Source: Heliopora coerulea (lineage: Eukaryota; Cnidaria; Anthozoa; Scleralcyonacea; Helioporidae). From it: a DNA stretch of 64,000 nt. The stretch lies in NCBI GenBank assembly GCA_030142905.1, contig JASJOG010000475.1, positions 1-64,000 of the forward strand, read 5' to 3'. Shown here in pieces: positions 3,460 to 64,000 of the stretch. The position numbers and the translations under genes are program-made. Under the pieces are notes generated by a model. That model saw only the letters and a list, made by a program, of their open reading frames with translations. It was not told where the DNA came from and ran no database searches. The number at the start of each line of letters is the position of its first letter. Position 1 is the first letter of the stretch.

Positions 3460-3578
3460 AATTATTAATGCAATATTCGCGTGCCTACGCGGGACCTTTA
3501 AAAACAAAGTATCAAATTATCATATTCCTTTCTAACTTCATGAGTTCTGCTGCGAAGCAAAGGATAAACATTAGCAAT

Positions 3579-14709: not shown

Positions 14710-17700
14710 ATGATGAGTGACAATTCTGTAACTGTTCAGGGTGTTACGTGTAAACCATACACGCAAAATGACGGCGTCACGGTGATTGATCTGAGACCAG
14801 CAGGTTATTTGAAAGAAACCATTCATAAAGACCTGCTTCGTTTTAAAAATGTAATGAAACTTATTCTTTATCATGAAAATGCTGTCAGCTTTCTTGACGC
14901 AACCTCGGATAGTCTGCCACCCAGTATCACGATTGAAATGTTTGGTCAATGTGATAAGAACCACCCTTATGCAGAAGAAATAGATGGCAAATATTTATGG
15001 AAGACCTGTCACATCGAAATTGATGAACACGGCTCAACTTTCCTTGATTTACGATGTAAAGCTCTAAGTGGACAGCCCCTCAAGTTTCAGACGCCAAAGA
15101 AACTACGACAACTAATCTTGAGGGATTATGAAGATAGTGTTCTGGTTGGTGACAGCAGTGGAACCTTTCAATTTTTAGAAGAACTGATCATTAGTGGTGG
15201 CAGACCAGGAGACAAAACGTTGACCATAAATGTTGGTGTAAATTCATTTTTTAATGAAGATTATGAAACACTCACTTCCATTTTGTTCAAAGGTATTACT
15301 GTAAATGTAAGTAGATCCTGGAAGAGAGTGGACAATCTTCAGCAACTTACCAAATATAGCAGACCTTCTCTTGCCGAAATGTTCAATCTCAGGAAGTTCT
15401 TCGTTAGTGCTGATGGAAATAACATATTCCCTACTGGACTAGATAGACTGCCATATCTTGAAGAGATATCCATGATTGATAATCCAGCTGCCCGTGAGCT
15501 AGCCTTAAAGAAGAATTTGACTCAAGTGAAAAGAGTGAACTTTGTCAATTGTGGTTTAGAACTGTTAAGCAATTGCATGAAGGCATTTCCTGATGTTCAG
15601 GAACTGAACCTTTGTGGTAACAAGAGTCTTGGCAGGCAAACAGAAATACTTCCCCAGTCAGCACATTTGAAGAAGCTTAACTTGTGTGGGTGTGGTCTTC
15701 AACAATCACCAGCTGGGCTTGAGGAGTGTTCGGAACTAGAAGAGTTGGATCTTAGTACGAATTGGGGGCTTGGTAAACACCCAGTAACTCTTCCAAAATC
15801 AAAACACTTGAAGAAGCTTAACTTGTCAAGGTGTGGTCTTCAACAATCACCAGCTGGGCTTGAGGAGTGTTCGGAACTAAAAGAGTTGGATCTTAGTGGG
15901 AAAGAGGAGTTTTTTAGCCTCCCAGTTAGTCTTCTAAAATTAGAACACTTGAAGAAGCTTAACTTGTCAAGGTGTGGTCTTCAACAATCACCAGCTGGGC
16001 TTGAGGAGTGTTCGGAACTAGAAGAGTTGGATCTTAGTTGGAATTGGAGGATTGGTAAATACCCAGTAACTCTTCCAAAATCAAAACACTTGAAGAAGCT
16101 TAACTTGCAATGGTGTGGTCTTCAACAATCACCAGCTGGGCTTGAGGAATGTTCGGAACTAGAAGAGTTGGATCTTAAGGCGAATGGGGAGCTTGGTAAA
16201 TACCCAGTGACTCTTCCAAAATCAAAACACTTGAAGAAGCTTAACTTGTGTGGGTGTGGTCTTCAACAATCACCAGCTGGGCTTGAGGAATGTTCGGAAC
16301 TAGAAGAGTTGGATCTTAAGGAGAATGGGGAGCTTGGTAAATACCCAGTGACTCTTCCAAAATCAAAACACTTGAAGAAGCTTAACTTGTCAAGGTGTGG
16401 TCTTCAACAATCACCAGCTGGGCTTGAGGAATGTTCGGAACTAGAAGAGTTGGATCTTAAGGAGAATTGGGAGCTTGGTAAACACCCATTAACTCTTCCA
16501 AAATCAAAACACTTGAAGAAGCTTAACTTGCAATGGTGTGGTCTTCAACAATCACCAGCTGGGCTTGAGGAATGTTCGGAACTAGAAGAGTTGGATCTTA
16601 AGGCGAATGGGGAGCTTGGTAAATACCCAGTGACTCTTCCAAAATCAAAACACTTGAAGAAGCTTAACTTGTGTGGGTGTGGTCTTCAACAATCACCAGC
16701 TGGGCTTGAGGAATGTTCGGAACTAGAAGAGTTGGATCTTAAGGAGAATGGGGAGCTTGGTAAATACCCAGTGACTCTTCCAAAATCAAAACACTTGAAG
16801 AAGCTTAACTTGTCAAGGTGTGGTCTTCAACAATCACCAGCTGGGCTTGAGGAATGTTCGGAACTAGAAGAGTTGGATCTTAAGGAGAATGGGGAGCTTG
16901 GTAAATACCCAGTGACTCTTCCAAAATCAAAACACTTGAAGAAGCTTAACTTGTCAAGGTGTGGTCTTCAACAATCACCAGCTGGGCTTGAGGAATGTTC
17001 GGAACTAGAAGAGTTGGATCTTAAGGAGAATGGGGAGCTTGGTAAATACCCAGTGACTCTTCCAAAATCAAAACACTTGAAGAAGCTTAACTTGTCAAGG
17101 TGTGGTCTTCAACAATCACCAGCTGGGCTTGAGGAATGTTCGGAACTAGAAGAGTTGGATCTTAAGGTGAATTGGGAGCTTGGTAAACACCCAGTAACTC
17201 TTCCAAAATCAAAACATTTGAAGAAGCTTAACTTGTGTGGGTGTGGTCTTCAACAATCACCAGCTGGGCTTGAGGAATGTTCGGAACTAGAAGAGTTGGA
17301 TCTTAAGGCGAATGAGGAGCTTGGTAAATACCCAGTGACTCTTCCAAAATCAAAACACTTGAAGAAGCTTAACTTGTGTGGGTGTGGTCTTCAACAATCA
17401 CCAGCTGGGCTTGAGGAGTGTTCGGAACTAGAAGAGTTGGATCTTAGTTGGAATTGGAGGATTGGTAAATACCCAGTAACTCTTCCAAAATCAAAACACT
17501 TGAAGAAGCTTAACTTGCAATGGTGTGGTCTTCAACAATCACCAGCTGGGCTTGAGGAATGTTCGGAACTAGAAGAGTTGGATCTTAAGGCGAATGGGGA
17601 GCTTGGTAAATACCCAGTGACTCTTCCAAAATCAAAACACTTGAAGAAGCTTAACTTGTCAAGGTGTGGTCTTCAACAATCACCAGCTGGGCTTGAGGAA

Positions 17701-24500: not shown

Positions 24501-27500
24501 GTAGGCATATTTTAAACGATAATATTCTTTCATTATACTGCTTAAATCCTGCTTCAATGTTTTAACTGCTATCTAAATTATCTTTCATTCAAATCAAGAG
24601 CTGGAACGAAGATATTGTAAATGAAAGACATAAATACTCGGCTTTATTTTTCCACAGTAATTATTCTACTAAGTTTTCTTAAAATTGTATTTGAGTGAGA
24701 TTATGTATTCTGCATATATATTTTTAGACAATGCACTATAACATGAAGTTCAACTATTTATCGCGGTTAATCTATTTTCAGGTAAAAGACGTATATTAAA
24801 AGTACCCAGTGATGTAACCAAGCCTTATTATGATAAGCTGATTGAGTCTGAGGAATCTAGTGAACTGAAAATCAAAGTAACTGGTAAGATATTTAAAGTC
24901 AAACTTTTAATGGCAGTTAAAATAATGTTGTGATCATCTCCTTTAGGATGGCTTCGATGTTATTCCAAAGTTCTTAAATAACAAAGGACTGTTACTAAGC
25001 ACTTAGTATTGTAGTCTTCTTAACAAGATACATCATGACGTCTGATGTATTTCTAGCACAAAAATCTTTACCTCCTTGGGAAGTAAGGAAATTTTGTTGA
25101 AAAGTTTTGGCACTCTCTGGAAGTTTTTTTCATTTCAAGAAACTATAAGACCAAAACATAAGTTTTTTCGAAATGCCTATGCATAACCTAAGAGGAGAAA
25201 AAGCAGCAATACCAATTTAACTAGAGACACTTAAGATATCATTAAAATGCATTTGTTCGGTCAGTTGACCAAAGCCTGGATACCTTTTCTAATGGATATT
25301 GTGTAAGTAGTAGATAAATTCGTTATTCAGTGAAAATATATCGGATAGAAGATACCAAGAAGATAGCGCTATCCATGCATTGAATAAACAACCCTCTGCA
25401 CTAGACACATTTTGTTTGCTAAATAGGAGTTATCCTTTGGTTACAAGTTATCCAAACTTTAAACAACAGAATTAAGTCTTAGTATCCAAATCATAAAGTG
25501 CTATTGTGCACTTTTGAGGTAGCAGATGGAGGATGGTCAAGGAGACGGCCTTACATTTTATTAGACGTTAAAATCAGGCGTCCTCTGAAGACTGATAAAC
25601 GGAAATTTTTTGTCTCTCGTACCTGATGATACGCAATACCTAAACGAATTTCATTTAACATGTTATTTGAGAATAAGAATGGTACATTATGGTAACTTTT
25701 TTTTATGAAGATTTAAGAACAATTTATGGTTTACCTCCAAACGTCTACGAACACGCTTGTATGATGTTAAACATGCCCATTCCGGATGGAGATTGTGAAG
25801 TATTGGCAGAATACTTGGGGTACTCTGCTAAACAACTATCCAGATTCAAACAGTCGAAGAATCCTGCAGACGCCATTTTGTTTCATTGGGCTACCCAACC
25901 TGGAAATGGTTTAGACAGACTTATTGAAATCCTTAAGAAGATGAAAAGACATGACGTTGTCGAAACTCTTGAAGGAAAAGGTAACTCTCATTTTCACGGT
26001 AAACAACAAAGCAAAACAACATATAGAAGTAGATGAACGATCTTCAAGCTGGATACTCAGAAAATGATATCTGAGCCCCAGACGGGGATCGAACCCGCAA
26101 CCTTCTGATGACCGGTTAGACGCTCTAACCATTGAGCTATCGAGACTCAGATGGCGAGCTAAGTTGCAAATTCGATATATATATATGTGCGACCTAAGCG
26201 GAAGCCACTATATATTGATAATGATTGAAGCAGTTTGATGTTTAGGAAACATGAGAGCTTGGATATATTGAAGTAGATGAACGATCTTCAAGCTCGATAC
26301 TATCTACTTCAATATATCCAAGCTCTCATGTTTCCTAAACATCAAACTGCTTCAATCATTATCAATATATAGTGGCTTCCGCTCAGGTCGCACATATATA
26401 TATATCGAATTTGCAACTTAGCTCGCCATCTGAGTCTCGGTAGCTCAATGGTTAGAGCGTCTAACCGGTCATCAGAAGGTTGCGGGTTCGATCCCCGTCT
26501 GGGGCTCAGATATCATTTTCTGAGTATCGAGCTTGAAGATCGTTCATCTACTTCAATATATCCAAGCTCTCATGTTTCCTAAACATAAAACAACATATAG
26601 TTGATATACTTATGTAATGAACATGGACATAATTATTCTGTGTTTTATTCCGTCGCTCACCTTTGAATTCCATCTTATACATCCTGTTTTGCAATAGTTA
26701 GGTATTTAGGCTGGGGTGCTGTATAATTTCGATCACTCTGATGATGTTACTTGCGTAATAAAAATTTTTATGTCTTTAGCACATTTGCGTCCCTATGAGT
26801 CTTTTTAAAGTTATATGTTGGGCTATAGTTTTTATCACAAGAATTTTCTTTACACCTGATACTTCCACCGCCACAATTTTGATTTTAGCTTATTTATATA
26901 AACATATGCATATATATATAACATAAGGCTATAGCCGAGTGTTTTAGATCCGATAAGGCACGGACTGCGAGTATTTTAGATGGCTTCTAAAATGGACCAT
27001 TTAATACGCTAATTCGCGAAGAAAGTTTGGAAATTTACTTTTTTTAAGCCGAAAAAGATGAACTTCTTTACATATAAAGGTACATGTGTCTTTATTACAT
27101 ATAAAGACACGACACGGTTATGATTTTCTTTTGAATTTTCCTCATAAATTTTTAATGAATTTTATATGTAAAATTTAAAAACCGAGCTGAAGTACTTTAT
27201 CGGGATTTAAAACACGAGGCGATAGCCGAGTGTTTTAGACCCGATAAAGCACGAACTGGGAGTTTTTTAAATGTCTTATGAAATTCACCTCTTAATACGC
27301 TAATTCGTGAAGAAAGTTTGGAAATTTATCTTTCGTAAGCCAAAAAAATTGAACTATATATATCTTAAAAAATTCATTAAGAATTCATGAGGAAAATACA
27401 AAAGAAAATCATATTCCGGTTTCCGTCGATTGGCCAGATCTCTCTTACTGACAAGTAAAATGGTCTGGAGTAAAACAGTAGTAGACTGATACTGCTTGCT

Positions 27501-28785
27501 AAGAATTAACCCCACCTAGTCGTTTTAACTGAATTCTAAAACTATATTCCACTCTCTGGAAGCTTTTTTCATTTCAAGAAACTATTAGGCAGAACATGAA
27601 GTTTTCTTGGAAAAGCCTATGCATAACCTAACAGGAAAAAAGCAGCAATACCGATGAAACTAGAGACACCTAAGACATTATTAAAATGCACTTGTTCGGT
27701 CAGTTGCTCAAAGCCTGGATACCTTTTCTAATGCATATTGCGTAAGTAGTTGATAAATTCGTTATTCAGTGAAAAATTAACGGATAGAAGATAGCAAGAA
27801 GATAGCGCTATCCATGCATTGAATAAACAACCTTCTGCAGTAGACACATTTTGTTTGCTGAATAGGAGTTATCCTTTGGTTACAAGTTACCCAAACTTTA
27901 AACAATGGAATTCATTTAGTTTAGTACCCAAATCATAAAGTTTTATTGTGCACTTTTGAGGTAGAAGATGGAGGATGGTCTAGTGGACAGCCTTACATTT
28001 TATTAGACGTTAAAATCAGGCGTCCTCTGAAGACTGATAAACGGAAAATTTTTGTCTTTCGTATCTGATGATACGCAATACCTAAACGAATTTCATTTAT
28101 CATGTTATTTGAGAATAAGAATGGTACATTATGGTAACTTTTTTTTATGTAGATTTACGAACAATTTATGGTTTACCTCCAAACGTCTACGAACACGCTT
28201 GTATGATGTTAAACATGCCCGTTCCGGGGGGAGATTGTGAAGTATTGGCAGAATACTTGGGGTACTCTGCTAAACAACTATCCAGATTCAAACTGTCGAA
28301 GAATCCTGCAGACGCCATTTTGTTTCATTGGGCTACCCAACCTGGAAATGGTTCAGACAGACTTATTGAAATCCTTAAGAAGATGAAAAGACATGACGTT
28401 GTCGAAACTCTTGAAGGAAAAGGTAACTCTCATTTTCACGGTAAACAACAAAGCAAAATAACATATAGTTGATATACTTATGTAGTGGGCATTGACATAA
28501 TTATTCTGTGTTTTATTCCATCGCTCACCTTGGAATTCCATCTGATACATCGTGTTTTGCAATAGTTAGGTATTTAGGCTGGGATGCTGTATAATTTCAA
28601 TCACTCTGATGATGTTATTTATGTAGTGACGAAACGTTAGAAATAAAAATTTTTATGTCTTTAGCAAATTTGCGTCCCTATGAGTCTTTTTAGAGTTATG
28701 TGTTGGGCTATAATTTTTATCACAAGAATTTTCTTTACACCTGATACGTCCATCGCCACTGTTTTGATTTTGGCTTATTTATATA

Positions 28786-28825
<40 letters not shown>

Positions 28826-31800
28826 AGTGTGTGTGTGTGTGTGTTTGTGTGTAATATTTAAAAACCCTCTATCGGGACTTAAAGTACGAGGCTATAGCCC
28901 AGTGTTTTAGATCCGATACTGTGAGTTTTTTAGATGGCTTCTAAAATGGACCATTTTATACGCTAATTCGCGAAGAAAGTTTGAAAATTTACCTTTTGTA
29001 AGCCGAAAAAGATGAACTTCTTCACATATAAAGGCACATGTGTCTTTATTACACATAAAGACACGACATGGTTATGATTTTCTTTTGTATTTTTCTCATG
29101 AATTCTTAATGAATTTTATATGAAATATTTAAAAACCGAGCTGAAGTACTTTATCGGGATTTAAAACACGAGGCGATAGCCGAGTGTTTTAGACCCGATA
29201 AAGCACGAACTGGGAGTTTTTTAAATGTCTTATGAAATTCACCTCTTAATACGCTAATTCGTGAAGAAAGTTTGGAAATTTATCTTTCGTAAGCCAAAAA
29301 AATTGAACTATATATATTTATAAAATTCATTAAGAATTCATAAGTAAAATAAAAAAGAAAATCATATTCCGGTTTCCGTCGATTGGCCAGATCTCTCTTA
29401 CTGACAAGTAAAATGGTCTGGAGTAAAACAGTAGTAGACTGATACTGCTTGCTAAGAATTAACCCCACCTAGTCGTTTTAACTGAATTCTAAAACTATTC
29501 TCAAACCAAATAACAGCTTGAAAGAAAATAGTCTTCAGTACTCGACTTAATTTTCATCGATCATTTTGTAATTATGCCTTCAGTGTGTTTTAAATTGTAT
29601 TTGTAGACCATCAGATGCATGAATATAGTCTAAATGTACTTTAAAACAGCACATTTTAGTATTAAATTCATTTCTACTAAAGTCGGTTTGTGGTTTATTT
29701 ATTTTCTGGCCTAGAACATAGCTTCCGAAAGCCTAGTGGTGCAACCAAGCCGTATTCCGATAAGCTGATTGAGGATGAGGAGTCCAGTCTACCTAAAATC
29801 AAAGGAATTGGTAAGATATATTTAAAAAGACGGTAGAACGTCTAGTGTAAGTGAATGTAATGTGGTAATTATTTCAGTTTGATGAGTTTGATTATATGCC
29901 AAAGTCTTTAGTGGTCAAAAAGAGTCATTTCCAAGTACTTCTGGTTGTAGTTTTCTCTTTAACTTTAACTTAAATCTAGTTTTCAGAGATGCAACCAGGT
30001 TTTCTGTAAGGGAATTCAGTTCAATCATTTTTCTGCTACCCGTGGAAGTATTTTTCTATTTTAGAGCCTTGAAAAAGCACGAAAAATGCATTCCCCTTCA
30101 AAAATAATGAACAAAATAAATACAAACAAACAAAGAAAAAAAAAATAACGAAAAAATCCCCCACAATTTCCTTGAAAAAGATGCGGTATGTTTTGAAATA
30201 TAGGACTGTTTCACACGTGGAGGCAATTGCTTCCATTCTTTCCTGGTTGCGCCCCATACAATTTTCCATTGATAATTGCGACATTCGTTGTAAGACTCGT
30301 TTAGTTATTTGTGCTCTACCTAAACCACCTATTTTTAATTACGTTATTTTGCCGTTCACCCAAGATGACTATGTCCTTTGTCTTGTGAATCTCTGGGGGT
30401 TGAGTTGAAACGATCTATATAAGTTCGTTTTTGCCGTATGGACTTGCAACGTATCAGACAGAACTTAAATATTTCTTGGAAAAGTCTTTATATATCAAAA
30501 ATATGCAATAAAATACAGCTGTCCAAGTCTAACTAAATATGCTCCGACCTTCATTTAAACGCACTTGTTGGGTCGGTTTTTCAAAGTCTGGATACCTTTT
30601 CCGATGGATATACCGTAATGAGTAGATGAATTCGGTGTCAGTCAGTGAAAAATTAACGGAGTGAACGTAGAAAGAGGACAGTGCTGTCGTTCCTTTGAAT
30701 AACCAAACTTGTGCAGTGGACACATGTTGTTTGCTTAATAGGAATTATCCTCTGGTGACAAGTTAACCAGACTTTGAAAAACTTCCAATAAGAAATTGAA
30801 ATTGTTTAGCCATGTTTATATAGCGTGATGCAAACACGTGGAGAAGGTTGGGAGAATTTGAGTTATACAGCCATTTGAGAGTTCTCGCAACCTGTCCGAG
30901 TGTTTGCATCAGGCTATATTAACAGAACAAAACAGTTTCTATTTCTTTAATAAGATGAGCAAAGAAATGAACAATAATAATTGTGAATAGCCTGATATAA
31001 ACATCGTAACTGACCAATCATTGCGTGCGTAATAGGAAACGGTAAATGCTAAAAAGTATACAATAAAATAACGTTTCTGCAAGAAGCCTAGAAACGAGGG
31101 GGTGGAAAGGAGTTCAAGGATTGATTAAAGCGTTATACTGGTTTTTAGGTTGGGTTCAGAGCTATGGTTAGGATTAGAGTTCGTTTTAGGGTTTAAAATA
31201 GGTGGTAGATGTTTTGAAATACATACTTAGTTTCAATTCCTTATCAATTGATTCGTTTACAGTCTCTCCTCGAAACCTTATTTTAAGGTATACTTTTCGT
31301 CGAATTTTTATTGGAAGGTAAATTAGAGCAGGTTAGAAAAAACTATTCAGTTGATAACATCTATCATGTGAAAGAACCGATTACGTGGCTTGAAGGTAAT
31401 GTCGTCTACTTGTGAAATTTGCTGGCACCCATTTCTCAATTTAAATGGGCAATTTTTGTCTTTGCTGCATTTTCAGATCTCAGCTGTAACCCACAAACGA
31501 CTTTGATTGAAACTCTGATGAAGAGTGGAACGCGGATTTGTTTTGCCTGCAAAGTAGCAGTTAATTTTTCGCGGGAGTCTATCATTACTGAACAAGTGTC
31601 AGATATCGTTTGAAATAGGTTCATTAACCTTCAAGGGTTAACTTATTCCTAATACGCTAGAGTAGGAAGTTTAATAACTTGTTCAGGTTAAAAGTTTTTT
31701 GCGTCAGAATTTTAAATTCGAGCAACCGCAATTCTTTTACTGTCGGCAATTACGTTTGATAGTTGTCTTGCACTACAAGTCCTAAATCATTAACGTTGTG

Positions 31801-37279: not shown

Positions 37280-37319
<40 letters not shown>

Positions 37320-49300: not shown

Positions 49301-49911
49301 TCTTCAGACAATACAAAGGATCATAAATATATCATCTACCGAAATCTCAAATCATTAGACCATGCAAAGTTTTTAAAGGAACATGAAGAGACCCCATGGG
49401 ACACCGCTTTCCTCTTTGATGAAATTGATGATATTGTAAATACAGGGTATTGTCTCCTCAATGAAACAAACGCAAACGCGCCACTGAAACAGAAGCGTGT
49501 CAGGGACTAAACAAAGCCTAAATGGTTATCACCTGAGATCTTAAGGTTGATGAAACTACGAGACCGTTTACTTAAAAGAGCCAAACGCTCCGACTCCCAG
49601 GATGATTGGTTAGCCCTGAAGCGTGCGAAAAATAAAGTCACAGAAGCTATTAGAAGAGCCAAGAAGAATTTCTTCTACGAATCTTTCAGAGAAAACCGCG
49701 GTGACTCTAAGAAGATATGGTCTGCGCTTAAGGATCTAACTGGCCAGAAAAATCATGGGGGTGTGTCCTATTTGGAGGAGAACGGGTCTATCCAAATACG
49801 CGATGAAACTGCAATGCTTGAGATATTCAATAAACATTTCACGAGTTTAGCGGAGAGACTCGTTGACAGCACTGTAGGCTAGTTTGATCCAATCTTTTAT
49901 ATCTATATAAA

Positions 49912-49953
<42 letters not shown>

Positions 49954-55134: not shown

Positions 55135-55200
<66 letters not shown>

Positions 55201-61200: not shown

Positions 61201-64000
61201 TATCTTAGCAAGTTTCAAATCGTCAGGGAAGACACCAGTGTCCAGTACAAGATTAAAAATAAGTAATAAAGAGTCGTATATGGCTTCTCCAGCTAATTTT
61301 ATTAGTTTGTTTGAAATTTTATCTAATCCTGGTGCTTTATTTAAGTTGATTTTGCCAATTATTTGACTTAAGTTCGCCTTAGTTAATGTTCTTAAAGTGA
61401 ATTCCGATCGACAAGGCTGGATGAATTGTGTTGGATCTCTAGATTGCTCTAGATTGCTCATTACCCGAAACATTTAACCATATTACCGTTCCGAAAGCTA
61501 AGTACAGTTATAGCTGCATTTACTTTGCATTTCGTGTTCGATAAAAACTCCTCACGACACTAACGCCTTCTCACTCACACTCAAACTCAAAGAGTGGACG
61601 CTCATCCTCCATAAGTGCAACTCACTACTCATTGAGTCCCCCGACACACTGATAGAGTTTGGTACTGCACTTACACTGCAGCTATTCAAAAACAGCACTC
61701 ACCCTCAAGGGAAGCTCAAATTTGGAGTGAAGTGTGAGTGAAAGGTATACCTCCCTTGACCTACACTCACCTGTACTTAGTAATACAAACATGACGGATC
61801 GGTGGCTAAACAGTCTAACATCAGTTGATAATATTCCCGTTCACTACAGAAATAAACGAAAGACGTACAATTTTGATTATGAGCAATATGACGAGGAACA
61901 ATTTCGGAGCCGATACGGGTTAACGAAGGCTGGTTTTCGTGAGCTACTGGCTATAATCAGACCAGATATTTGTGCACATAATGACCGAGCAAAACCCATT
62001 CCTACTGATATTCAATTGTCGTTAACGCTCCGGTTTTATGCCACTGGTACGTTCCAGTTAGCATGCGGTGACTTGTGTGACATTTCGCAGCCATTAGCAA
62101 GTAGAATTATAAAACGCGTATCTGAGATAATTGCACGCTTAAAGAAACATTACATTAACTTTCCTGCCGATGATACTTTTCCATTTGCGAAAAATATTGC
62201 CCACTTTGAGACATCTGGCATGTGCAGCAGCGACTTGCGAACTATGCAACCGAGACTCAACAACGAGTATCAATAGCTCAAACAATCCCGATTATTCACC
62301 GTAACGCACTCCAGTAAGTGACACTAGAGTAATCTTTTTACATACAAATTCACCAGATTTTTTAACGAATGAGTGCTTCCTCGCAGAGTGAACATTCAAA
62401 CTCATACTCCACTCATTCTCACACTTCAATCGTACTTGAGTGCATCTCATTGGAGTCGAACTCAAGTGTGAGTGTGAGTGAACTTTTAGAATACAGGCGT
62501 AAGTCGTGTAAGATGTCATTACTGTTGTGATGCTTTTTATGTGTGTTAGATATAAAATTTACTTTATATTTGGATTTACAGAAAACAAAGAACTTGAGGC
62601 AGCAGCTTCAGTGGCAGTGAAGCATGGAAGGACGCGAAATAATCGTATCTCCATCTTCTTTATTGGTCAAGACCGTGTGGGAAAGACATCATTGAAGAAA
62701 AGAATTCTCGGAGAAAACTTTGACCATCAAGAACCTAGCACAGTCGGCATTGAAGTCGATATCGTTGAAGTTGACAAGAATGACAAGTTAAAACCTTGGC
62801 AACGTACTGGAGATCAACAACGTATGGTTTCCCAAAAACATGTCAATGACGTCATTGGTGAAGCTGCAGCTAAGTCGATTAAAGATTCCACAAAATCTAA
62901 TAGCACTGAAGTTAAACAACAGGACAAAGTAAAATCTCGTCAAGAAACTCAAGATCAGCAGCACATGGTACCTGATGAACGTGAAAATGCTGTCATGGGG
63001 AAAGGTGCAGCCAAAATGACGAATCACTCCGAAACGTCCGGTGGCATTGAAGTTAACGAAAAATCCGATACCACTGCCATTCGACAAATGGAAACGACGA
63101 AGCCCCATCAACATCTTCCAGATCAGCAACGTCCAGTATCTGAACATGTCAGTAGTGCCATAGCTGAAGAAGCCAAAACAATCGCAAGCTCCGAAAAGTC
63201 CGATATCACTGAACATGTCAGTAGTGCCATAGCTGAAGAAGCCAAAACAATCGCAAACTCCGAAAAGTCCGATATCACTGAACATGTCAGTAGTACCATA
63301 GCTGAAGAAGCCAAAACAATCGCAAACTCCGAAAAGTCCGATATCACTGAGGTTAAACGACAGGACGAGGCAAAAACTCATCTCACCGAAAGTGAGATCA
63401 TGGCATCAAATGAAGGAAGGAATAATGGTGCACCTGAGAACCGAAGCAGTGATAAGAATGGGAATAAAACTGGTGAAAAAAGTATCGACAAAAGCAATGT
63501 CGTTTTAACTCCCGAGTTAAAAAAAGCTATTAAAGAAAATATGTCAAAAGTTGACCTGTATGGTGACGACGACATGACCAAGGTCAGGTTGCTGCTGCAA
63601 GACGTAGCTGGCCAATCCTTATTTTATGATATTCACTCGATATTTCTGAGACCGCAGTCTTTATTTGTCCTGGTTGTTGGTCTTGACGAAGATCTTGATG
63701 GCAAAGCTAATCCATTGTTTGTCGATCAAAGAAAGAACATAAAGATAGAAATTGAGAACTACCTGGTGGAAACAAATCTAGACTATGCAAATCGGTGGAT
63801 GTCAGCTTTGCGTCATGTCAGCTTACTCGGTGAACGTACTGAGGGAACTAACTTTGATCCACCTGCTACCATTCTGGTCCTGACTAAGCCTGATTCGGTT
63901 ACTGGTACTCCAGATGAAATAGAGCGGAAGATCCAGAGAGCAACAGATATGTTGTTAAACAGCTTCACAGATTATCAATGTCGAAACCATATAGTTGGGA
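14710..64000 (+). CDS. Multi-exon LRR / multi-Death-domain / Roc GTPase gene (3' end outside window)
   Basis: Joining exons at 14710-18592, 22090-22164, 24782-24883, 25711-25980, 28153-28422, 29715-29810, 31897-32178, 35713-35814, 36647-36916, 38219-38314, 44815-44862 and 62582-64000 gives one uninterrupted frame. Every intron is phase 1 with AG acceptor and GT donor. The predicted cytosolic protein (no signal peptide) has an N-terminal LRR region, a run of linker plus Death-domain modules, a connector and a Roc GTPase. Roc domains belong to ROCO proteins (LRRK, DAPK1, MFHAS1), usually followed by COR, which should lie beyond the edge. LRRs would bind ligand or partner, Death domains would recruit homotypic partners, and Roc would act as a nucleotide switch; that role is inferred. 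The usual association in DAPK1 is Roc before Death, so several Death domains before Roc is unusual. A decayed extra Death exon (39193-39449) was left out. Exon usage is predicted and may vary between transcripts. Confidence 0.8.
15673..18592 (+). repeat. Coding tandem repeat: 21 units of 141 bp (47 residues, two LRRs)
   Basis: The HindIII-like aagctt in the unit recurs exactly every 141 bases from 15673 to 18493, giving 21 units. Within units almost all change falls in two short windows. One is the dipeptide after LNL (CG, SR or QW). The other is the four to six residues after LDL (STNWGL, SGKEEF, SWNWRI, KANGEL, KENGEL, KENWEL, KVNWEL, KANEEL, SENSRL). These are the positions that face the concave surface in an LRR. 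A silent marker (gaggag or gaggaa before tgttcgg) tracks the second window: gag with S-type, gaa with K-type units. Confidence 0.95.
19793..19880 (+). mobile_element. Fragment of tRNA-like SINE (3' half)
   Basis: It contains gatcagaaggttacgggttc and a B-box-like ggttcgattcccgt followed by ggactcagaaag, matching the tRNA-like body and tail of the copies at 21089 and 26434. The A-box half is missing. Confidence 0.6.
20805..21260. mobile_element. Inverted pair of tRNA-like SINEs
   Basis: A minus-oriented copy (tRNA-like part about 20842-20914) and a plus-oriented copy (21089-21161) meet head to head near 21010. Both have an A box close to tagctcaattg, a D-arm gctc...gagc, an anticodon stem (plus copy tctca/tgaga around ctggtcg, so GGT in the anticodon position) and a B box ggttcgatccc. 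The acceptor stem of the plus copy is poorly paired. Both continue into a shared tail (ctgaggataaagcttgac, then atctccaagctctcacactt). These are degenerate tRNA-derived elements and not working tRNA genes. Confidence 0.75.
22090..22164 (+). CDS. Exon 2: connector after LRR
   Basis: TTTATTTCCAG precedes 22090 and GTAAGC follows 22164. The 75-base exon is phase 1 to phase 1 and encodes ASIYELKQIRDVFSEEFPLV followed by QPSDF. It carries no known domain and is acidic and helix-prone. The G left by exon 1 plus CC completes the first codon, which supports the join. Confidence 0.75.
22371..23560 (-). mobile_element. CR1/L2-like LINE relics (composite)
   Basis: The minus strand encodes, in pieces, a LINE open reading frame. 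It includes ANTFKRYFTKLGSSLANKL and KSAFLGPFSLQTVSP from the linker/RT start (23560-23250) and a C-terminal tail SYFNRTVDLWNLLPGR (23035-22721). A separate RT fragment lies at about 22390-22520. Frames are broken, and the RT palm with its YxDD is absent. The same composite junction (RT piece joined to a LINE 3' end) recurs at 40500-40830, showing that this block was duplicated with the locus. Confidence 0.7.
23622..23670 (-). mobile_element. SINE tail fragment
   Basis: The segment agataaacgatcttcaagct followed by ctcagaaaatgatttctgagcccc matches the tail and start of the tRNA-like part of the family seen at 26027-26586. Only about 50 bases remain. Confidence 0.6.
24035..24350. mobile_element. 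Inverted pair of tRNA-like SINEs (one truncated)
   Basis: A minus-oriented tail fragment (24040-24122) is followed by an (AT)n run and a plus-oriented copy. The tRNA-like part of the plus copy is 24239-24311: acceptor gtcttgg...ctggggc pairs with wobbles, the D-arm is gctc/gagc, the anticodon stem is tctca/tgaga and the B box gttcgattccc. The plus copy ends in the usual ctgagggtaaagcttgacga tail. Confidence 0.7.
24782..24883 (+). CDS. Exon 3: linker module L1
   Basis: The 102-base exon lies between TATTTTCAG and GTAAGA, phase 1 on both sides. It encodes GKRRILKVPSDVTKPYYDKL followed by IESEESSELKIKVT. The same module recurs at 29715, 35713 and 38219. It is charged and probably a flexible or helical spacer before a Death domain. 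Confidence 0.8.
25711..25980 (+). CDS. Exon 4: Death domain 1
   Basis: Acceptor TTTTTATGAAG, donor GTAACT, 270 bases, phase 1 to phase 1. The 90 residues start DLRTIYGLPPNVYEHACMML. They contain the Death-domain hallmarks LAEYLGYSAKQLSRFK, NPADAILFHWATQ and LIEILKKMKRHDVVETLE, which correspond to the six-helix fold of Death domains in adaptor and receptor proteins. It should mediate homotypic protein contacts in the cytosol. The exon belongs to a unit of about 2 kb that is tandemly repeated at 27550-29515. Confidence 0.88.
26027..26586. mobile_element. 560-bp foldback element made of two inverted tRNA-like SINEs
   Basis: The insertion is bounded by an exact 14-bp direct repeat aaaacaacatatag (26013-26026 and 26587-26600). 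The paralogous sites at 28452 and 36946 lack it and keep one (slightly changed) copy. It holds a minus copy (tRNA-like 26074-26146) and a plus copy (26434-26506) of one SINE, joined by a complementary middle, so the whole can fold into arms of more than 200 bases. The plus copy has A box tagctcaatgg, B box ggttcgatccc and a 7-bp acceptor stem with wobbles. Confidence 0.85.
27195..27249. repeat. 55-bp imperfect hairpin (copies at 29149 and 37643)
   Basis: ctttatcgggatttaaaaca on the left pairs with tgttttagacccgataaag on the right around gaggcgatagcc. The same hairpin occurs at 29149-29203 and 37643-37697, and weaker relatives near 26928, 28890 and 37385. It marks the repeated Death-domain unit. 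Confidence 0.75.
28153..28422 (+). CDS. Exon 5: Death domain 2
   Basis: Acceptor TTTTATGTAG, donor GTAACT, 270 bases, phase 1 to phase 1. It encodes 90 residues nearly identical to Death domain 1, with PVPGG for PIPDG, FKLSK for FKQSK and NGSDR for NGLDR. The amino-acid sequence is identical to Death domain 4 (36647-36916). No linker exon was found between Death domains 1 and 2, so they would be joined directly if both are used. Confidence 0.88.
28789..28855. repeat. (AT)n(GT)n microsatellite (copy at 37283-37349)
   Basis: A run of about 16 AT units passes into GT repeats. It creates the apparent ORF at 28680-28910, which has no biological support. Confidence 0.9.
29715..29810 (+). CDS. Exon 6: linker module L2
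   Basis: Acceptor CTGGCCTAG, donor GTAAGA, 96 bases, phase 1 to phase 1. It encodes EHSFRKPSGATKPYSDKLIE followed by DEESSLPKIKGI. TKPY-x-DKLIE is shared with all linker modules. It is two residues shorter than L1 and L3 and pairs most closely with L4 (38219). Confidence 0.8.
31897..32178 (+). CDS. Exon 7: Death domain 3 (divergent)
   Basis: Acceptor ATTACGACAG, donor GTAATT, 282 bases, phase 1 to phase 1. The 94 residues start GRSKERFSIRDLDPLVYNII. They retain LAGHMGYTAGKLNTFR, DPSDALLSDWGTK and LIVFLKKMGKDDLIWLLEAE, again a Death domain. It is much more diverged from the other four copies than they are from each other, so it is an older or functionally distinct member. It is flanked on the right by the mariner element. 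Confidence 0.85.
32282..33872 (-). mobile_element. Tc1/mariner transposon, 1591 bp, DD37E type
   Basis: Terminal inverted repeats of about 100 bases start CACTGTGTCTGAAGTTATTA on the left, with the right end CACTGCGTCTGAAG on the other strand. They are flanked by TA at 32280-32281 and 33873-33874. The element carries one transposase gene on the minus strand. It sits in the intron after Death domain 3. Confidence 0.92.
32593..33606 (-). pseudogene. Tc1/mariner transposase, two in-frame stops
   Basis: The frame is 338 codons from ATG at 33606. The N-terminus has a helix-turn-helix-like start (MGKKKDLSATEKKEIVQLL). The catalytic part has IFTDESR (first D), FMQDNAPSH (second D) and RDLNPIENMW (E), with 37 residues between the second D and the E, so it is DD37E and not the DD34E of Tc1. 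An in-frame TAG after about 50 residues and a TGA just before MSTAKKSVSRPPLNKT interrupt it, leaving a 233-residue C-terminal frame. No frameshift was seen. It is probably inactive but recent. Confidence 0.85.
33890..34960 (-). mobile_element. CR1/L2-like LINE relic
   Basis: Minus-strand pieces encode SVNGNKQTSKLTTANIFHRY, KSAFLGAFSLEKVSPSKVF, DILTVAKVTPLLKEADK (RT start) and a palm segment LDLSKAFDTV further down. Frames are broken and a short AATATTTTAAAAAAACACTC unit is tandemly repeated near 34220-34270. It corresponds to the relic at 22371-23560, and both lie just left of a linker exon, so they were duplicated together. Confidence 0.7.
35713..35814 (+). CDS. Exon 8: linker module L3
   Basis: Acceptor CTATTTCCAG, donor GTAAGA, 102 bases, phase 1 to phase 1. 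It encodes DERRILKAPGNVTKPYYDKL followed by IESEDSSELKIKET. It is closest to L1 (24782), as expected if the 22-30 kb and 34-40 kb blocks are duplicates. Confidence 0.8.
36044..37864 (+). repeat. 1.8-kb near-identical block, copy 2 (partner 27550-29370)
   Basis: This is the second copy of the block described at 27550, including Death-domain exon, hairpin and microsatellite of the same length. Linker exons on either side differ between the two loci at several residues, so the identity is confined to this tract. Confidence 0.88.
36647..36916 (+). CDS. Exon 9: Death domain 4
   Basis: The splice sites and sequence are the same as exon 5, and the predicted 90 residues are identical to Death domain 2. 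It follows linker L3 by about 0.8 kb of intron, the same order as L1 to Death domain 1. See exon 4 for domain motifs. Confidence 0.88.
38219..38314 (+). CDS. Exon 10: linker module L4
   Basis: Acceptor CCTGTTCCAG, donor GTAAGA, 96 bases, phase 1 to phase 1. It encodes EHSFRKPSAVTKPYSDKLIE followed by DEESSGPKMKGI. It differs from L2 at four residues. If the following Death exon is indeed dead, this linker would join straight to exon 11. Confidence 0.75.
39193..39449 (+). pseudogene. Decayed Death-domain exon 5
   Basis: After a TTTATAAAG acceptor-like site the frame reads DLETIYGLPPNVYEYACMML and keeps LAEYLGYSAKQRSRFK and HWTTQTGNGLDRLIEIL. It ends RHDVKT and then a stop where the other copies read RHDVVETLEGK and a GT donor. 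The last helix and the usual donor are lost. A GTAAAG sits inside the end (gac-gtaaag) but would break the phase-1 rule. I treat it as a dead exon. It could act as an alternative terminal exon giving a protein truncated before Roc. Confidence 0.7.
40190..40830 (-). mobile_element. CR1/L2-like LINE relic (composite)
   Basis: The minus strand encodes KVPKVIPILKSADKSEVS, ILEKMVCKQLINYLEDNS, FGFCKRKNITIS and GEISLGLFLDL from the front half of a reverse transcriptase. At about 40620 it is joined to a non-coding LINE 3' end that matches 22540-22700. The junction is the same as at 22520-22540. Confidence 0.7.
40843..41620 (-). pseudogene. KIAA1586/ZMYM-like hAT transposase relic
   Basis: In minus-strand order the pieces are WLVEFEWLCYNSEANVMYCD (aromatic residues and CDFC of a TTF/BED-like finger), a frameshift near 41370, then FKKENIGALGKSQKHAKCCD, and after an in-frame stop at 41095 the segment NSNYMSLMIDWATDRSVSEN. 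The LMID-x-ATDRSVSENE block marks the first catalytic Asp region in the hAT-derived KIAA1586-type proteins. The C-terminal half is missing. This is a dead copy in the long intron region before exon 11. Confidence 0.6.
41895..42392. mobile_element. 498-bp MITE with TA flanks
   Basis: The ends CCGTAAAATTCCAGTTATAA and GGCTTATTACCGGGATTTTA (then CGC) are inverted repeats. The dinucleotide TA flanks both sides (41893-41894 and 42393-42394). The inside is rich in ataagccc blocks in both orientations and has no coding capacity. TA flanks suggest mobilisation by a Tc1/mariner-like enzyme. Confidence 0.7.
42744..44415 (-). mobile_element. IS630/Tc1-like DNA transposon with subterminal repeat arrays
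   Basis: The ends share CACCTTTT in inverted orientation. The right end is followed by TA and the left is preceded by CA, probably a mutated TA. Between each end and the transposase gene lies an array of short repeats built from gaaatttccaa and aatttcagat (42770-43070 and, inverted, 44215-44400). Such subterminal arrays are usually transposase binding sites. The transposase gene is on the minus strand. Confidence 0.7.
43141..44182 (-). pseudogene. IS630-type DDE transposase with one late frameshift
   Basis: The main frame runs 44182 to 43250 (310 residues). It has an N-terminal helix-turn-helix region (SLADRERIVRLANNGGNWRK...YKTAYAW), a second DNA-binding part (GRQKKLTDDQMDDV, FSKSTIHNYL) and a DDE core: IWMDETNINFF, VLVCDNVPCHS and LNSMETISSKMK, with 33 residues between the second D and the E. 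It stops after YVEALI, but the C-terminal tail AMRQIAARDIANAYQHAQGF continues in another frame to a stop at 43141. A single base is therefore out of place near 43246. Otherwise the gene is intact, so the element is young or the frameshift is an assembly error. Confidence 0.8.
44815..44862 (+). CDS. Exon 11: short connector
   Basis: The 48-base exon lies between TCTTATTCAG and GTAAAC, phase 1 on both sides. It encodes EILDEFIQGTIKNESS. Its phase, acceptor and donor fit the chain between the Death-domain array and the Roc exon. It is short, so chance cannot be excluded; transcript evidence would decide. Confidence 0.55.
44900..45330 (-). repeat. Possible LINE 3' fragment
   Basis: The stretch gagtttattaagtttaccac followed by aaaatattacaaaag resembles a LINE 3' untranslated end in minus orientation. 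A small hairpin caacccgtaacataacgggttg lies just before it. No coding sequence remains. Confidence 0.3.
45586..46338. mobile_element. Harbinger-like non-autonomous element with TAA target duplication
   Basis: The outer about 40 bases are inverted repeats. The right end reads GGCCTAGTTCAGACGTCGAA from outside and the left end GGTCTAGTCCATAAGTTGAA, both continuing into gtcgcatttaat. TAA flanks both sides (45583-45585 and 46339-46341), which fits PIF/Harbinger. The interior segment 45867-46110 is about 80 percent identical to the sequence just left of the element (45340-45580), so it seems to have jumped into a relative. The interior contains CPSCGNEKK-like codons but no intact gene. Confidence 0.6.
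46342..47019. other. No gene recognised
   Basis: There is no supported feature. A stretch at about 46738-46820 has acceptor- and donor-like ends (acagtcag, ttcaggtaat) but the frame would leave in phase 2, breaking the phase-1 chain. Confidence 0.4.
47020..48203 (+). mobile_element. LINE A, 5' part (interrupted by LINE B)
   Basis: Plus-strand pieces encode a CR1/Jockey-type reverse transcriptase: NKLIKKTKEDYFKEKASEHK, HKATGDEDVIVKILK, FVDYKKAFDLVDHHLLISKL and GSILGPVLFLIFINDF. Several stops and frameshifts are present, and the segment with the catalytic YxDD appears deleted between INDF and LDGKLSFDEHVD. The element continues at 51389 after an inserted LINE B; the break has an 11-bp duplication tcaagagtttt (48193-48203). 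Confidence 0.75.
48605..49510 (+). pseudogene. LINE B apurinic-like endonuclease domain
   Basis: The 301-residue frame has the exonuclease/endonuclease/phosphatase motifs in order: LRFGQWNVNYL, IMVIIETFF, GRGGGIAVYIN, ILTGDFKLDYF, SCLDHIW and ISDHLPV. These are the metal-binding and catalytic positions of LINE endonucleases, which nick target DNA for target-primed reverse transcription. The frame ends in a stop right after KQKRVRD and before the linker, so ORF2 is interrupted. The motif usually GDFN reads GDFK here. Confidence 0.8.
49547..49882 (+). pseudogene. LINE B linker and start of RT
   Basis: It encodes KLRDRLLKRAKRSDSQDDWL, RAKKNFFYESFRENRGDSKK and FNKHFTSLAERL, the typical linker between endonuclease and RT in CR1/L2-type LINEs. 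It stops at 49882. The next about 100 bases, which should encode the RT fingers, are replaced by a TA microsatellite. Confidence 0.7.
49911..49975. repeat. (TA)n microsatellite with flanking duplication
   Basis: About 16 TA units sit between two copies of ataaacgat and atcttttatatc. It replaces the region of LINE B that should encode the first part of the reverse transcriptase. Confidence 0.85.
49985..50756 (+). pseudogene. LINE B reverse transcriptase palm and thumb
   Basis: The frame contains FREHHSTE, LADFQKAFDLVSHDILIEKL, GVPQGSVLSQLLFLVFINDL and the catalytic FVDDTTFS, followed by a thumb with NRFKLNTEKTKSMF and LLGAYVDQDLSFNEHVEQL. The catalytic DD is kept, but the fingers are missing. 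The frame ends at 50756, and a short further piece (FRLQKRAARVILGL-like) follows in other frames. Confidence 0.8.
51389..52051 (+). mobile_element. LINE A, 3' part
   Basis: After the target duplication the LINE A reading resumes with SFLPVEQRIIYYNAMIKQ and RLQKLAARVILDADARA, then VKVNVCTLIHKRLFCDCPVY and FSVRMARLWNTLTNKLK, the usual C-terminus. It ends in a (ttga)n tail near 52050. Confidence 0.75.
52048..52545. mobile_element. Cluster of three tRNA-like SINE copies in inverted arrangement
   Basis: It begins with a minus copy whose tRNA-like body is degenerate (52075-52137), followed by a second minus-oriented partial copy (52265-52340) and a plus copy (tRNA-like 52361-52432: gttttggtagctcaatg, ggttcgatccc). 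The plus copy ends in the family tail gaggatagagcttgacgatc, then agctctcgcacttc. It abuts the (ttga)n tail of LINE A, so it probably used that tail as a landing site. Confidence 0.7.
52563..55200 (+). mobile_element. LINE C relic with (CTAT)n tail
   Basis: Plus-strand pieces run from the end of an endonuclease (PPFGLSDHNTVVALLK) through the linker, the RT start (KALVKLNPGKGSGPDEIPN), the palm (ILFDYRKAFDLIDHNILIDK), a catalytic YVDDTTT near 53972 and the C-terminus (DLALFYVSCIRSVVDYGIPA, DPSHKLNKLLPERY). Many stops and frameshifts make it inactive. It is interrupted by a hAT MITE at 54311-54487 and ends in (ctat)n at about 55118-55200. Confidence 0.75.
54311..54487. mobile_element. 177-bp hAT-type MITE inside LINE C
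   Basis: It is flanked by an exact 8-bp duplication gtaccagc (54303-54310 and 54488-54495). Its ends CATAGGCGTAGAGTTT and AAACTCTACGTCACTG are imperfect inverted repeats. The interior is rich in gggctgag and agccccccgag and has no coding capacity. The LINE C reading continues on the other side. Confidence 0.88.
55118..55220. repeat. (CTAT)n microsatellite and SINE scrap
   Basis: About 20 CTAT units end LINE C. They are followed directly by agtggcttccgcttagg, the head of the tRNA-like SINE family. Nothing recognisable lies between 55221 and the LTR at 55315. Confidence 0.8.
55315..55493 (-). repeat. 3' LTR of the Gypsy element
   Basis: The 179-bp long terminal repeat is bounded by TG...CA. 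The polyprotein stop codon (55489-55491) lies just inside it. Confidence 0.93.
55489..59508 (-). CDS. Gypsy gag-pol polyprotein, 1339 residues, intact frame
   Basis: There are no stops across 1339 codons. In order: a gag-like N-terminus (MGSSGTFGKIEPFDGG...), two zinc knuckles (CWRCSGTNHRASEC and CRNCKRQGHIARVC, about residues 205-240), an aspartic protease (FELDTGASVSVIS), reverse transcriptase (KLDLKNAYNQIMLDES), RNase H (ILDTDASAYGVGA, RTDHKPL) and integrase with HATH...CNAC, D in HVDFAGPF, D in VSDDGPQF and E in SNGEAERF. The normal RT catalytic Y-x-DD reads RVED (VCRVEDILVSG), replacing the first catalytic Asp by Glu, and the nearby RLPYGV reads RLPYEV. RT may thus be inactive although the frame is open. 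The start codon lies inside the primer-binding sequence. Gag and pol are fused without a frameshift. Confidence 0.93.
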   Translation of the reverse strand: MGSSGTFGKIEPFDGGPKEWPSYAERVEQYLVANDIADPKKMVATLLTVVGLRTYSLLRDIVAPTKPSELKYEEIMEKLNKHYDPKPLVIAERFKFHKRNQIATETIAEYSAALRKHATYCQFGAFLEEALRDRLVCGLRDIATQKRLLAEANLTLTKALEIAQGMEAAARQAQTLKNGWSDDSKTVNLLDRQVDKHSESRADTCWRCSGTNHRASECRFKVERCRNCKRQGHIARVCRKQVKRGGEESGTDKNAGRSKEASKASKTKYVSGESDQDDDDQMMDDEQLGLHRLQIENVDSRILVPLLLNGSSKVNFELDTGASVSVISEKTWRDDLKGIPLKKSGMSLRTYTGGRLKVVGKVDVNVEYEKQTASLPLHVLEGNGPSLLGRNWLRSIQLNWGSIKRVVNNLDELLDKHREVFQDELGVFKNVKAKLHIKPDVKPKYCKPRSVPYALREPIERGIERLVEQGVLEKVEYSDWAAPIVPVMKPDGSVRICGDYKVTVNPYLEVDKHPLPKAEDLFVELSGGEKFTKLDLKNAYNQIMLDESFREYVTINTHRGLYRLRRLPYEVAPASAIFQSKMEQLLQGIPMVVCRVEDILVSGNDDDSHLAHLDQVLTRLGNANLCLKLGKCKFMQPSVEYLGYLINAQGLHTTAKKVKAISEAPIPTNVQELRAFLGMLNYYSKFVHNHSITAQPLTDLLKKGVPWKWTDETTEAFNKLKHQIATAPVLTHYDPKLPIILDTDASAYGVGAVISHKLYNGEERPIAFSSRTLSSSERNYAQVEKEALGIIHGVKKFHQYLFGKKFKIRTDHKPLTTILGPKVGIPTLAAERLQRWALFLSAHNYEVEFRPTEKHANADCLSRLPLKAKYSENSEKTQSVNVMQIESMPVTAEQLKHATQTDSMLSRVLEYTLKGWHEQTPPEFRAFYVRRNEITVEDGCLLWGIRVIVPAKLRGLVLEELHATHPGIVRMKSLARIHVWWPRLDEDVAAMVRSCNACQAVRNRPSAAPLHPWSWPEMPWQRIHVDFAGPFMDHMFLIVVDSFSKWLEVVMMKSTTANRTIEELRDIFARNGLPQQLVSDDGPQFTSEEFTRFMKANGIRHIRTAVKHPASNGEAERFVQTFKRAFKAGNGDPGNLRQNLAQFLFTYRTTPNTVTTRTHAELFLNRKLRTRLELLHPNLSAKIATKQAISKEKHDSRSKAREFEVGDTVLVENFRGEPKWLSATVIERTGPVSYRTQVGEVVWKRHVDQMRGCDSSVNLRRSSAMPVPIVRSIDGATSTNSEQTPSVEPNKQEPVSSSNVSELPTEIVSEGSNTNECRRCPTRCRQSPDRYGFDKEGGV
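59505..59519 (-). other. Primer-binding-site-like sequence of Gypsy element
   Basis: Three bases inside the 5' LTR the minus strand reads TGGCGACGAGGATGG, which begins with the TGG that pairs with a tRNA CCA end. The ATG of the polyprotein is within it. The tRNA was not identified. Confidence 0.6.
59522..59700 (-). repeat. 5' LTR of the Gypsy element
   Basis: Partner of 55315-55493 with two differences in 179 bases. It should hold the element promoter; no clear TATA box was chosen. Confidence 0.93.
59706..61480 (-). mobile_element. LINE D (CR1/L2-like), 5'-truncated, (TAA)n tail
   Basis: On the minus strand the coding part ends at 59851, and the element finishes in an (attatt)n plus-strand run (59706-59731), that is a (TAA)n tail. 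The 5' end near 61480 lacks the endonuclease and linker, as expected for incomplete reverse transcription. The Gypsy element sits immediately beside the tail. Confidence 0.8.
59851..61473 (-). CDS. LINE D reverse transcriptase, 540 residues, uninterrupted
   Basis: The frame covers the complete RT region without stops: KINLNKAPGLDKISNKLIKL, AKITPIYKEGDKTKCGNFRP, KQQAGFRPNHSTETALL, LFLDFKKAFDTVDHSILLRK, GVPQGSNLGPLLFSLYINDL and the catalytic YMFADDTNLSC. The thumb has ANKLTLNTKKTEFML and LGIIIDNELKWTEHI, and the C-terminus RRAARTITGSNYQ-like and YAWNTLPNEILDI. The endonuclease is missing, so it could not insert itself. The retained frame suggests a fairly recent insertion. Confidence 0.88.
   Translation of the reverse strand: MFRVMSNLEQSRDPTQFIQPCRSEFTLRTLTKANLSQIIGKINLNKAPGLDKISNKLIKLAGEAIYDSLLLIFNLVLDTGVFPDDLKLAKITPIYKEGDKTKCGNFRPISVIPAVAKILEKLIYDQLSSYINENDIICKQQAGFRPNHSTETALLNCTNQWLLNMDKGLINGVLFLDFKKAFDTVDHSILLRKLQHYGIKGTALKLLTSYMYNRKQVCVVNNVKSEQKLVQSGVPQGSNLGPLLFSLYINDLPNCLEHTQAYMFADDTNLSCTGKTLTEIENKLNADLFHVSKWLEANKLTLNTKKTEFMLIASNRKLNQSSADLGILINGSNIKQVKHKKTLGIIIDNELKWTEHIEEQCKKLSSAIALLRKAKPYVPHNDLICMYNSLVLPYFTYCSTVWNDGNKTNLEKLKKIQKRAARTITGSNYQIRSKTIFRTLGWSPIENILKRRELLTTFKAVRSIAPEYICDMFTYCDNIYHQTRSNRRKLLLEKPNRSFMKKSFSYRGAYAWNTLPNEILDIHEQLSAYSFKAVLTKHLH
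61570..62490 (+). mobile_element. Harbinger-like element with partial transposase
   Basis: The ends share inverted repeats (left tctcactcacactcaaactc; right gagtgtgagtgaac, the reverse complement of gttcactcacactc). Exact ends and target duplication could not be fixed. It carries the N-terminal part of a HARBI1-like protein and lies 90 bases before the Roc exon. Confidence 0.55.
61734..62276 (+). pseudogene. HARBI1-like transposase, N-terminal half only
   Basis: The useful frame starts at MTDRWLNSLTSVDN (61791) and includes FRSRYGLTKAGFRELLAIIR, RAKPIPTDIQLSLTLRFYAT and GDLCDISQPLASRIIKRVSE, the DNA-binding and first structural part of PIF/Harbinger nucleases. After FPADDTFPFAKNIAHFE it changes to unrelated sequence and stops. 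The CIDGTHI-type catalytic part is absent because of an internal deletion. It needs a complete relative to move. Confidence 0.75.
62582..64000 (+). CDS. Exon 12: Roc GTPase domain with repetitive insertion (open at window end)
   Basis: The acceptor GGATTTACAG ends at 62581. Reading in phase 1 gives ENKELEAAASVAVKHGRTRN and then 473 codons without a stop to the window end. The GTPase motifs are P-loop FIGQDRVGKTSLKK (G1), PSTVGIEVDI (G2), LLQDVAGQSLFYDI (G3) and ILVLTKPDSV (G4, TKPD for NKxD). The order and the GQ after DVA match Roc domains of ROCO proteins. Between KPW (62799) and G3 lies an insertion of about 250 residues, charged and rich in E, K, S and T. It holds three tandem 23-residue repeats (EHVSSAIAEEAKTIASSEKS then DIT) at 63142-63348. 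The COR domain expected after Roc should follow beyond the edge. The antisense frames 62788-63381 and 63123-63347 are shadows of these repeats. Confidence 0.88.
63142..63348 (+). repeat. Three 69-bp in-frame repeats in Roc insertion
   Basis: Units start at gaacatgtcagtag (63142, 63211, 63280), each 69 bases (23 codons), differing by single bases (gcc/acc, agc/aac). The length is a multiple of three, so copy number can change without breaking the frame. Confidence 0.95.

Follow-up and report, generated by a model that had tools for sequence, protein, structure and literature searches.

Probable parts of two neighbouring genes, an LRR gene with a Death-domain array and a ROCO GTPase gene, in a contig of Heliopora coerulea

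A stretch of 64,000 bases from the anthozoan Heliopora coerulea, called the window below, carries LRRs, a row of Death-domain exons and a Roc GTPase exon, all on the plus strand. The question raised by this order is whether the three parts are joined in one protein or belong to neighbouring genes. The original prediction favoured one protein, encoded by one frame running through 12 exons, all of phase 1, with Roc in place of NACHT. The window covers bases 1-64000 of contig C418 (152,864 bases; GenBank JASJOG010000475.1), and the searches of the same genome covered 430 Mb in 769 contigs. The features of the window are the following.

14710..18592, plus strand: LRR exon, probable first coding exon; ATG at 14710, in-frame stop just 5' of it, weak donor GTAACG at 18593
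15663..18582, plus strand: tandem array of 141-bp (47-aa, two-LRR) units within the LRR exon; 93% matches; amino-acid variation at codons 8, 9, 31, 32, 34, 35, 36 and 39
24782..24883, plus strand: linker exon lkA1, phase 1/1
25711..25980, plus strand: Death exon D1, phase 1/1
28153..28422, plus strand: Death exon D2, phase 1/1; same protein as D4
29715..29810, plus strand: linker exon lkB1, phase 1/1
31897..32178, plus strand: Death exon D3, phase 1/1; divergent type, about 41-43% to D1/D2
35713..35814, plus strand: linker exon lkA2, phase 1/1
36647..36916, plus strand: Death exon D4, phase 1/1
38219..38314, plus strand: linker exon lkB2, phase 1/1
39193..39440, plus strand: D5, degenerate Death exon lacking the donor of its sister exons; outside the exon model
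62582..64000, plus strand, continuing to a stop at contig position 65161-65163: Roc-COR exon, a ROCO GTPase module, probably of a separate gene

The 44 kb between the two large exons (18600-62590) were scanned for exons of at least 60 nt with phase 1 at both ends and splice scores above 4. The scan gave 23 candidates, which include four Death exons and four linkers (96-102 nt); the linkers are of two related types, 102 or 96 nt long. Homology support was not found for other candidates, such as those at 34869-34928 and 22090-22164, which were dropped. D5 was dropped as a coding exon as well: it stops about 7 codons short of its sisters, has no donor and looks degenerate. The donor of the LRR exon scores 3.8, under the cut-off of 4 used in the scan, and the acceptor of the Roc exon scores 4.1. 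When concatenated, the ten exons (LRR, four linkers, four Death and Roc-COR) give 2651 codons including one terminal stop. The phase-1 joining and the open frame of the original prediction are thereby recovered, but ten exons can be followed and not twelve. The pieces themselves are confirmed, the LRRs, Death domains and Roc by Pfam matches and the G1-G4 motifs of Roc in the sequence letters.

Transposon-like reading frames are found at 3462-3806, 32593-33297, 43250-44194, 48500-50756, 55489-59547, 59851-61473 and 61731-62276, and sit in introns and in the gap before the Roc exon. Their classes, named by eye, are BED finger, Tc1/mariner-like, LINE-like, Ty3-like and Harbinger-like; the frame at 61731-62276 has no Pfam match.

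The LRR exon is part of a 1318-codon open frame (14704-18660) that starts right after a stop codon and matches Pfam LRR_4 (4.4e-71) and LRR_8 (1.5e-52). Degenerate LRRs form its N-terminus and are followed by 20.7 units of 141 bp with 93% matches. Since no signal peptide was seen by eye, the protein is taken to be probably intracellular. Its N-terminus, compared with 5.8 billion proteins, had no match at E<=0.001 among 6195 candidates. Elsewhere in the same genome, an LRR exon at C50:740615-750652 has an open frame of 4995 aa, or about 100 units if it is built like that of the window, and several other LRR exons exceed 1800 aa.

Pfam Death matches five stretches of the plus strand (1.7e-6 to 8e-11), and four of these are intact exons with AG/GT borders and phase 1 at both ends. 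The nearest solved structures are the Death domains of p75NTR, NRADD and MyD88, and a Death profile found 62 proteins among 2216 candidates. The proteins of D2 and D4 are identical because each exon lies in a tract of ~1.6 kb (27.7-29.3 kb for D2, 36.2-37.8 kb for D4) and the DNA of the two tracts agrees at 99.5-100%; the flanks of these tracts are about 88-91% alike. Recent gene conversion, duplication and an assembly fault are all compatible with such tracts. D1 and D2 compared within the window show little constraint (1.5 synonymous changes on 56.5 sites, 4.5 nonsynonymous on 210.5).

A paralogous Death array with pieces of about 73-95% DNA identity is present on contig C592. Splice borders and frames of D1, D3, lkA2 and lkB2 are kept there, and the donor is lost in two of the five linker copies compared. 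For D1, the two loci are separated by 4.0 changes on 55.2 synonymous sites and by 3.0 on 211.8 nonsynonymous sites; for D3 the values are 5.5 on 57.0 and 11.5 on 222.0. Nonsynonymous change is thus lower than synonymous change in both exons, on small counts.

The right-hand exon matches Pfam Roc (PF08477, 4e-14) and contains GQDRVGKTS, a G2 threonine, DVAGQ and TKPD, which we take to be the G1-G4 motifs. The original prediction proposed extending the sequence rightwards to look for COR or kinase domains. COR is indeed present just outside the window, directly after Roc (COR-A, PF16095, 3.1e-16); a kinase was dropped from consideration, there being no Pfam match after COR within the exon. As both Roc and COR are present, the exon is a ROCO module. 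Its frame is open for 859 codons, and its sequence is conserved across 15 aligned sequences; the database relatives amount to 17 proteins among 7991 candidates scored, the best at 71%. At 62780-63540 the Roc domain is interrupted: a long insert separates G2 from G3 and includes a 23-residue repeat in three copies, recognized by eye. Aligned relatives that cover this part also carry extra sequence there, the insert of the window being the longest. The C-terminus is rich in cysteine and histidine, a property common to several relatives. No 5' exons of a ROCO gene were found. Further along the contig, an open frame at C418:101848-102645 has a PNP_UDP_1 match (2.3e-6); PNP_UDP_1 precedes NACHT in a fungal NLR, according to the available part of PMC4986451.

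The order of the corresponding exons across same-genome paralogues bears directly on whether the parts belong together. The candidates scored were 82 of 264 for Roc-COR, 150 of 460 for D3, 150 of 503 for Pfam Death and 126 of 879 for the LRR N-terminus. The LRR list holds 92 places, the window's included, from 128 rows, the 36 dropped being repeat-only rows and second pieces. For Roc-COR, 82 of 92 rows were used and 10 short C-terminal pieces dropped; some of these 82 places have stops, and they are exons, not a gene count. The two sets of 150 Death rows were merged to 260 places. Neighbouring LRR, Death and Roc places are nearly always on one strand per contig, as in head-to-tail gene clusters.

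Among the scored places, a Death exon lies within 30 kb on the same strand downstream of the LRR in 47 of 92 cases and upstream in 4 of 92 (sign test p=1.2e-10, loci not independent); without the window's own gene the counts are 46 and 4 (p=2e-10). These p-values overstate the certainty because the places are often recent duplicates and only scored hits are counted. Death exons on the opposite strand were found at 0 of 92 LRR places within 30 kb and at 2 of 92 within 60 kb. A scored Death exon is missing within 30 kb downstream of the remaining 45 of 92; the 17 top LRR places (at least 84%, the window's included) divide into 8 with and 9 without one. Because Death sits downstream of LRR so much more often than upstream, the LRR exon and the Death array look like parts of one large gene family, as judged from exon order.

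No such order is seen for Roc. Starting from the 260 scored Death places, Roc lies within 30 kb downstream of 5 and upstream of 5, and at 60 kb the counts are 10 and 11. Starting from Roc, Death is upstream of 7 of 82 and downstream of 4 of 82 within 30 kb (p=0.27). LRR places have Roc within 60 kb downstream in 4 of 92 cases, the window included, and upstream in none (p=0.06), a small number that leans to a composite gene.

The six closest relatives of D3 among the 150 of 460 scored (86-93%) are on C530, C331, C592, C497, C97 and C197. None of the six has a scored Roc-COR downstream on its contig, where about 56-259 kb are available. C592, with the same linkers and Death exons as the window, has no scored Roc-COR on its 82-kb contig. 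An LRR lies upstream of the D3 relative at C497 (21.5 kb), C197 (10 kb) and C331 (about 91 kb). No LRR match was found 5' of it on C530, C592 and C97, only about 20-25 kb being present there on C530 and C592; a match to the LRR N-terminus is absent from C592:1-40000. In the tracts C66:671001-711000, C474:40001-60000 and C99:413001-433000, which contain Death arrays, neither an LRR nor a Roc match reached the cut-offs applied; in the genome search made afterwards, LRR matches lie 28.6 kb upstream of the array on C66 and 20 kb upstream of that on C99.

The six closest scored relatives of the Roc exon are on C182, C331, C568, C304, C593 and C398. A scored Death exon was not found on the 5' side of the relatives on C182, C331 and C568; the C304 relative is only 3.5 kb from the contig end, too near to be informative on a 5' Death exon. 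C182 and the window share 98.7% DNA identity along 1.26 kb starting at 62021. On C331 an LRR is followed by two Roc places and then by Death. On C593 and C398 a 59% D3-like exon is found about 21 kb 5' of the Roc relative, and a second Roc-COR match sits between the two. At C398, C384 and C593 the distance from the end of a Death exon to a Roc-COR match 3' of it is 571 bp (by coordinates at C384 and C593). These three look like copies of one locus, and are the best evidence that Death is able to precede Roc; at C398 this Roc-COR is without the G1 part and has a frame change near its end. At C63:508466-513426, a Roc-COR exon comes first and two D3-like Death exons come after it, on the same strand and within about 3.5 kb; they would be either a Death part after Roc-COR or the start of the next gene.

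From these observations the window is read, with a probability of roughly 0.7, as parts of two neighbouring genes, an LRR-Death-array gene and a separate ROCO gene. The Roc-COR exon is assigned to a neighbouring gene because the order of Death and Roc is unassociated and all six of the closest scored D3 relatives are without a scored downstream Roc. An LRR-Death-Roc transcript with a Roc switch replacing NACHT in an NLR-like sensor is unlikely by comparison. It would account for the phase 1 of all exons, the phase-1 acceptor on the Roc exon and the single open frame of 2651 codons, and it gains from the 4 to 0 lean of Roc to the downstream side of LRR, from the 7 to 4 excess of Death upstream of Roc (p=0.27) and from the 571-bp spacing at C398, C384 and C593. 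A precedent would be the ROCO proteins of Trichoplax that carry death, CARD and LRR domains according to the available part of PMC4104024. Against it stand the 5 to 5 balance among the 260 Death places, the six D3 relatives and the approximately 23 kb, rich in transposon-like frames, which separate the last Death exon from Roc. A common exon phase is also usual in domain-shuffled genes. Of the composite protein originally proposed, the join between LRR and Death is supported by paralogue order; for Roc as a replacement of NACHT in the same protein, the paralogue order lends no support.

It is more doubtful still that the array and the Roc exon are degenerate or non-expressed copies, that is, duplicates decaying in a transposon-rich region. 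The missing donor of D5, the lost donors of two of five linker copies on C592, the internal stops in a number of paralogue rows and the many transposon-like frames in the window would fit such decay. The LRR and Roc-COR frames are nevertheless both open, over 1318 and 859 codons, nonsynonymous change in D1 and D3 is below synonymous change between loci, on small counts, and the scaffold codons of the LRR units vary far less in amino acid than at silent sites (pN 0.001 against pS 0.040).

This last comparison comes from the repeat units of the LRR exon. Twenty units are readable in register, 12 of them different, and their mean pairwise amino-acid identity is 89%, rising to 91% when the divergent unit is omitted; the least similar pair stands at 68%. 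The array appears recently shuffled. Codons at which the amino acid differs in at least three units were defined as variable, which gave the eight of 47 listed above. With the divergent second unit left out, the eight codons have pN 0.279 and pS 0.088 over 19 units, a ratio biased upwards because the codons were picked by their amino-acid variability; the values given for the scaffold apply to the other 39 codons of the same units. Codons 8-9 and 31-32 come directly after LxxLxL motifs. In a model of nine units, predicted from a single sequence with moderate confidence (mean pLDDT 70.9), positions 8 and 31 mark the ends of several strands. Among solved folds the model is nearest to SHOC2 and further LRR proteins; the LRR of the Chlorobium tepidum Roco comes at ranks 32 and 40. 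Four of the eight variable codons fall among ten concave sites fixed beforehand, a marginal enrichment (p=0.05). Half of the variable codons are thus predicted to lie on the ligand face, a distribution that would resemble the pattern of fungal non-self receptors.

The LRR-Death gene can be compared with several known systems. PIDD1 has the order LRR - ZU5 - UPA - Death. It is similar in combining an intracellular LRR part with a Death domain in the absence of a NACHT module, the succession of LRR and Death being present in the window by exon order and open frame. ZU5 and UPA had no match in the window exons scanned, and the linkers (31-33 residues) are too short for them. The gene of the window differs further in its several tandem Death domains with short linkers, in the near-identical units of its LRR array and in its many paralogous loci. 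Neither NACHT nor NB-ARC had a match when the LRR, Death and Roc-COR exons were scanned, and the gene is therefore classed as an LRR-Death protein and not as an NLR.

Some fungal NLRs have near-identical WD, ANK or TPR repeats that vary in number and are under selection at few codons of the binding face (available part of PMC4986451). The criterion of that work, identity above 85% over at least 100 aa, holds for the LRR units of the window, which also share an array length differing between copies and may share the few variable codons toward the binding face. The fungal proteins differ in that no LRR was found among their repeats in the same part of PMC4986451, whereas the repeats of the window are LRRs, and the gene of the window has Death domains and no NACHT or NB-ARC in the exons scanned. 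As a member of the LRR-Death proteins, the gene product may work like an intracellular recognition protein that assembles through its Death domains, with repeat diversification of the fungal style.

For the ROCO side, the available text of PMC11378527 describes 9-47 ROCO genes per species in brown algae, with LRRs diversified by exon shuffling and selected sites on the concave face. The shuffling of LRR repeats, the large ROCO number and, as predicted for the window, the concave-face sites are points of likeness. In brown algae each LRR is an exon of its own, 72 bp long, and part of the ROCO (same part of PMC11378527), whereas the units of the window are inside one exon of what is read as a different gene; the 82 Roc-COR places exceed 9-47, but are exons, some with stops, and not counted genes. 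The Trichoplax ROCO family is alike in consisting of Roc-COR GTPases of an early animal lineage and in the death and LRR domains reported for it (PMC4104024, available part). A difference is that the scored Roc-COR exons of the present genome have no consistent order relative to Death exons. Toll-like and MyD88-like proteins with Roc-COR are reported from Aplysia in the available part of PMC9334734, and the available parts of PMC8195603 and PMC8260672 hold nothing on ROCO-Death proteins. In the accessible portions of the open-licence literature, neither LRR-Death arrays with near-identical LRR units nor an animal ROCO set of such size was found described.

Under the two-gene reading, the first gene would encode an intracellular protein with a long N-terminal LRR solenoid followed by a row of Death domains with short linkers. 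The face of the solenoid would bind a ligand, and unequal exchange among the near-identical units would alter their number and order. Ligand binding may expose or cluster the Death domains, which could then recruit Death-domain adaptors by helical assembly. Such a protein would act as a sensor-oligomeriser that lacks its own nucleotide switch, presumably with a role in immunity. The second gene would encode a ROCO (Roc-COR) GTPase, with the large exon that starts at 62582.

Tentatively, and with slightly less than even confidence, we propose a large animal family of cytosolic receptors with LRRs and multiple Death domains. Its diversification would be like that of fungal non-self receptors, it would have no NACHT, and an unusually large ROCO family would stand beside it. 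The composite reading of the locus is corrected in one respect, the adjoining GTPase being probably the product of a different gene. If the proposal is true, codons of the ligand face would vary on an otherwise homogenised repeat, the repeat number would shift by exchange within a single exon, with open frames of up to 4995 codons, and the receptors would signal through stacked Death domains. The prediction follows that repeat number and order differ between individuals. Dozens of LRR-Death loci, with repeats varying at a handful of codons on or beside the ligand face, would offer a system testable by sequence for the question of how animals without adaptive immunity come by large and fast-changing recognition repertoires.
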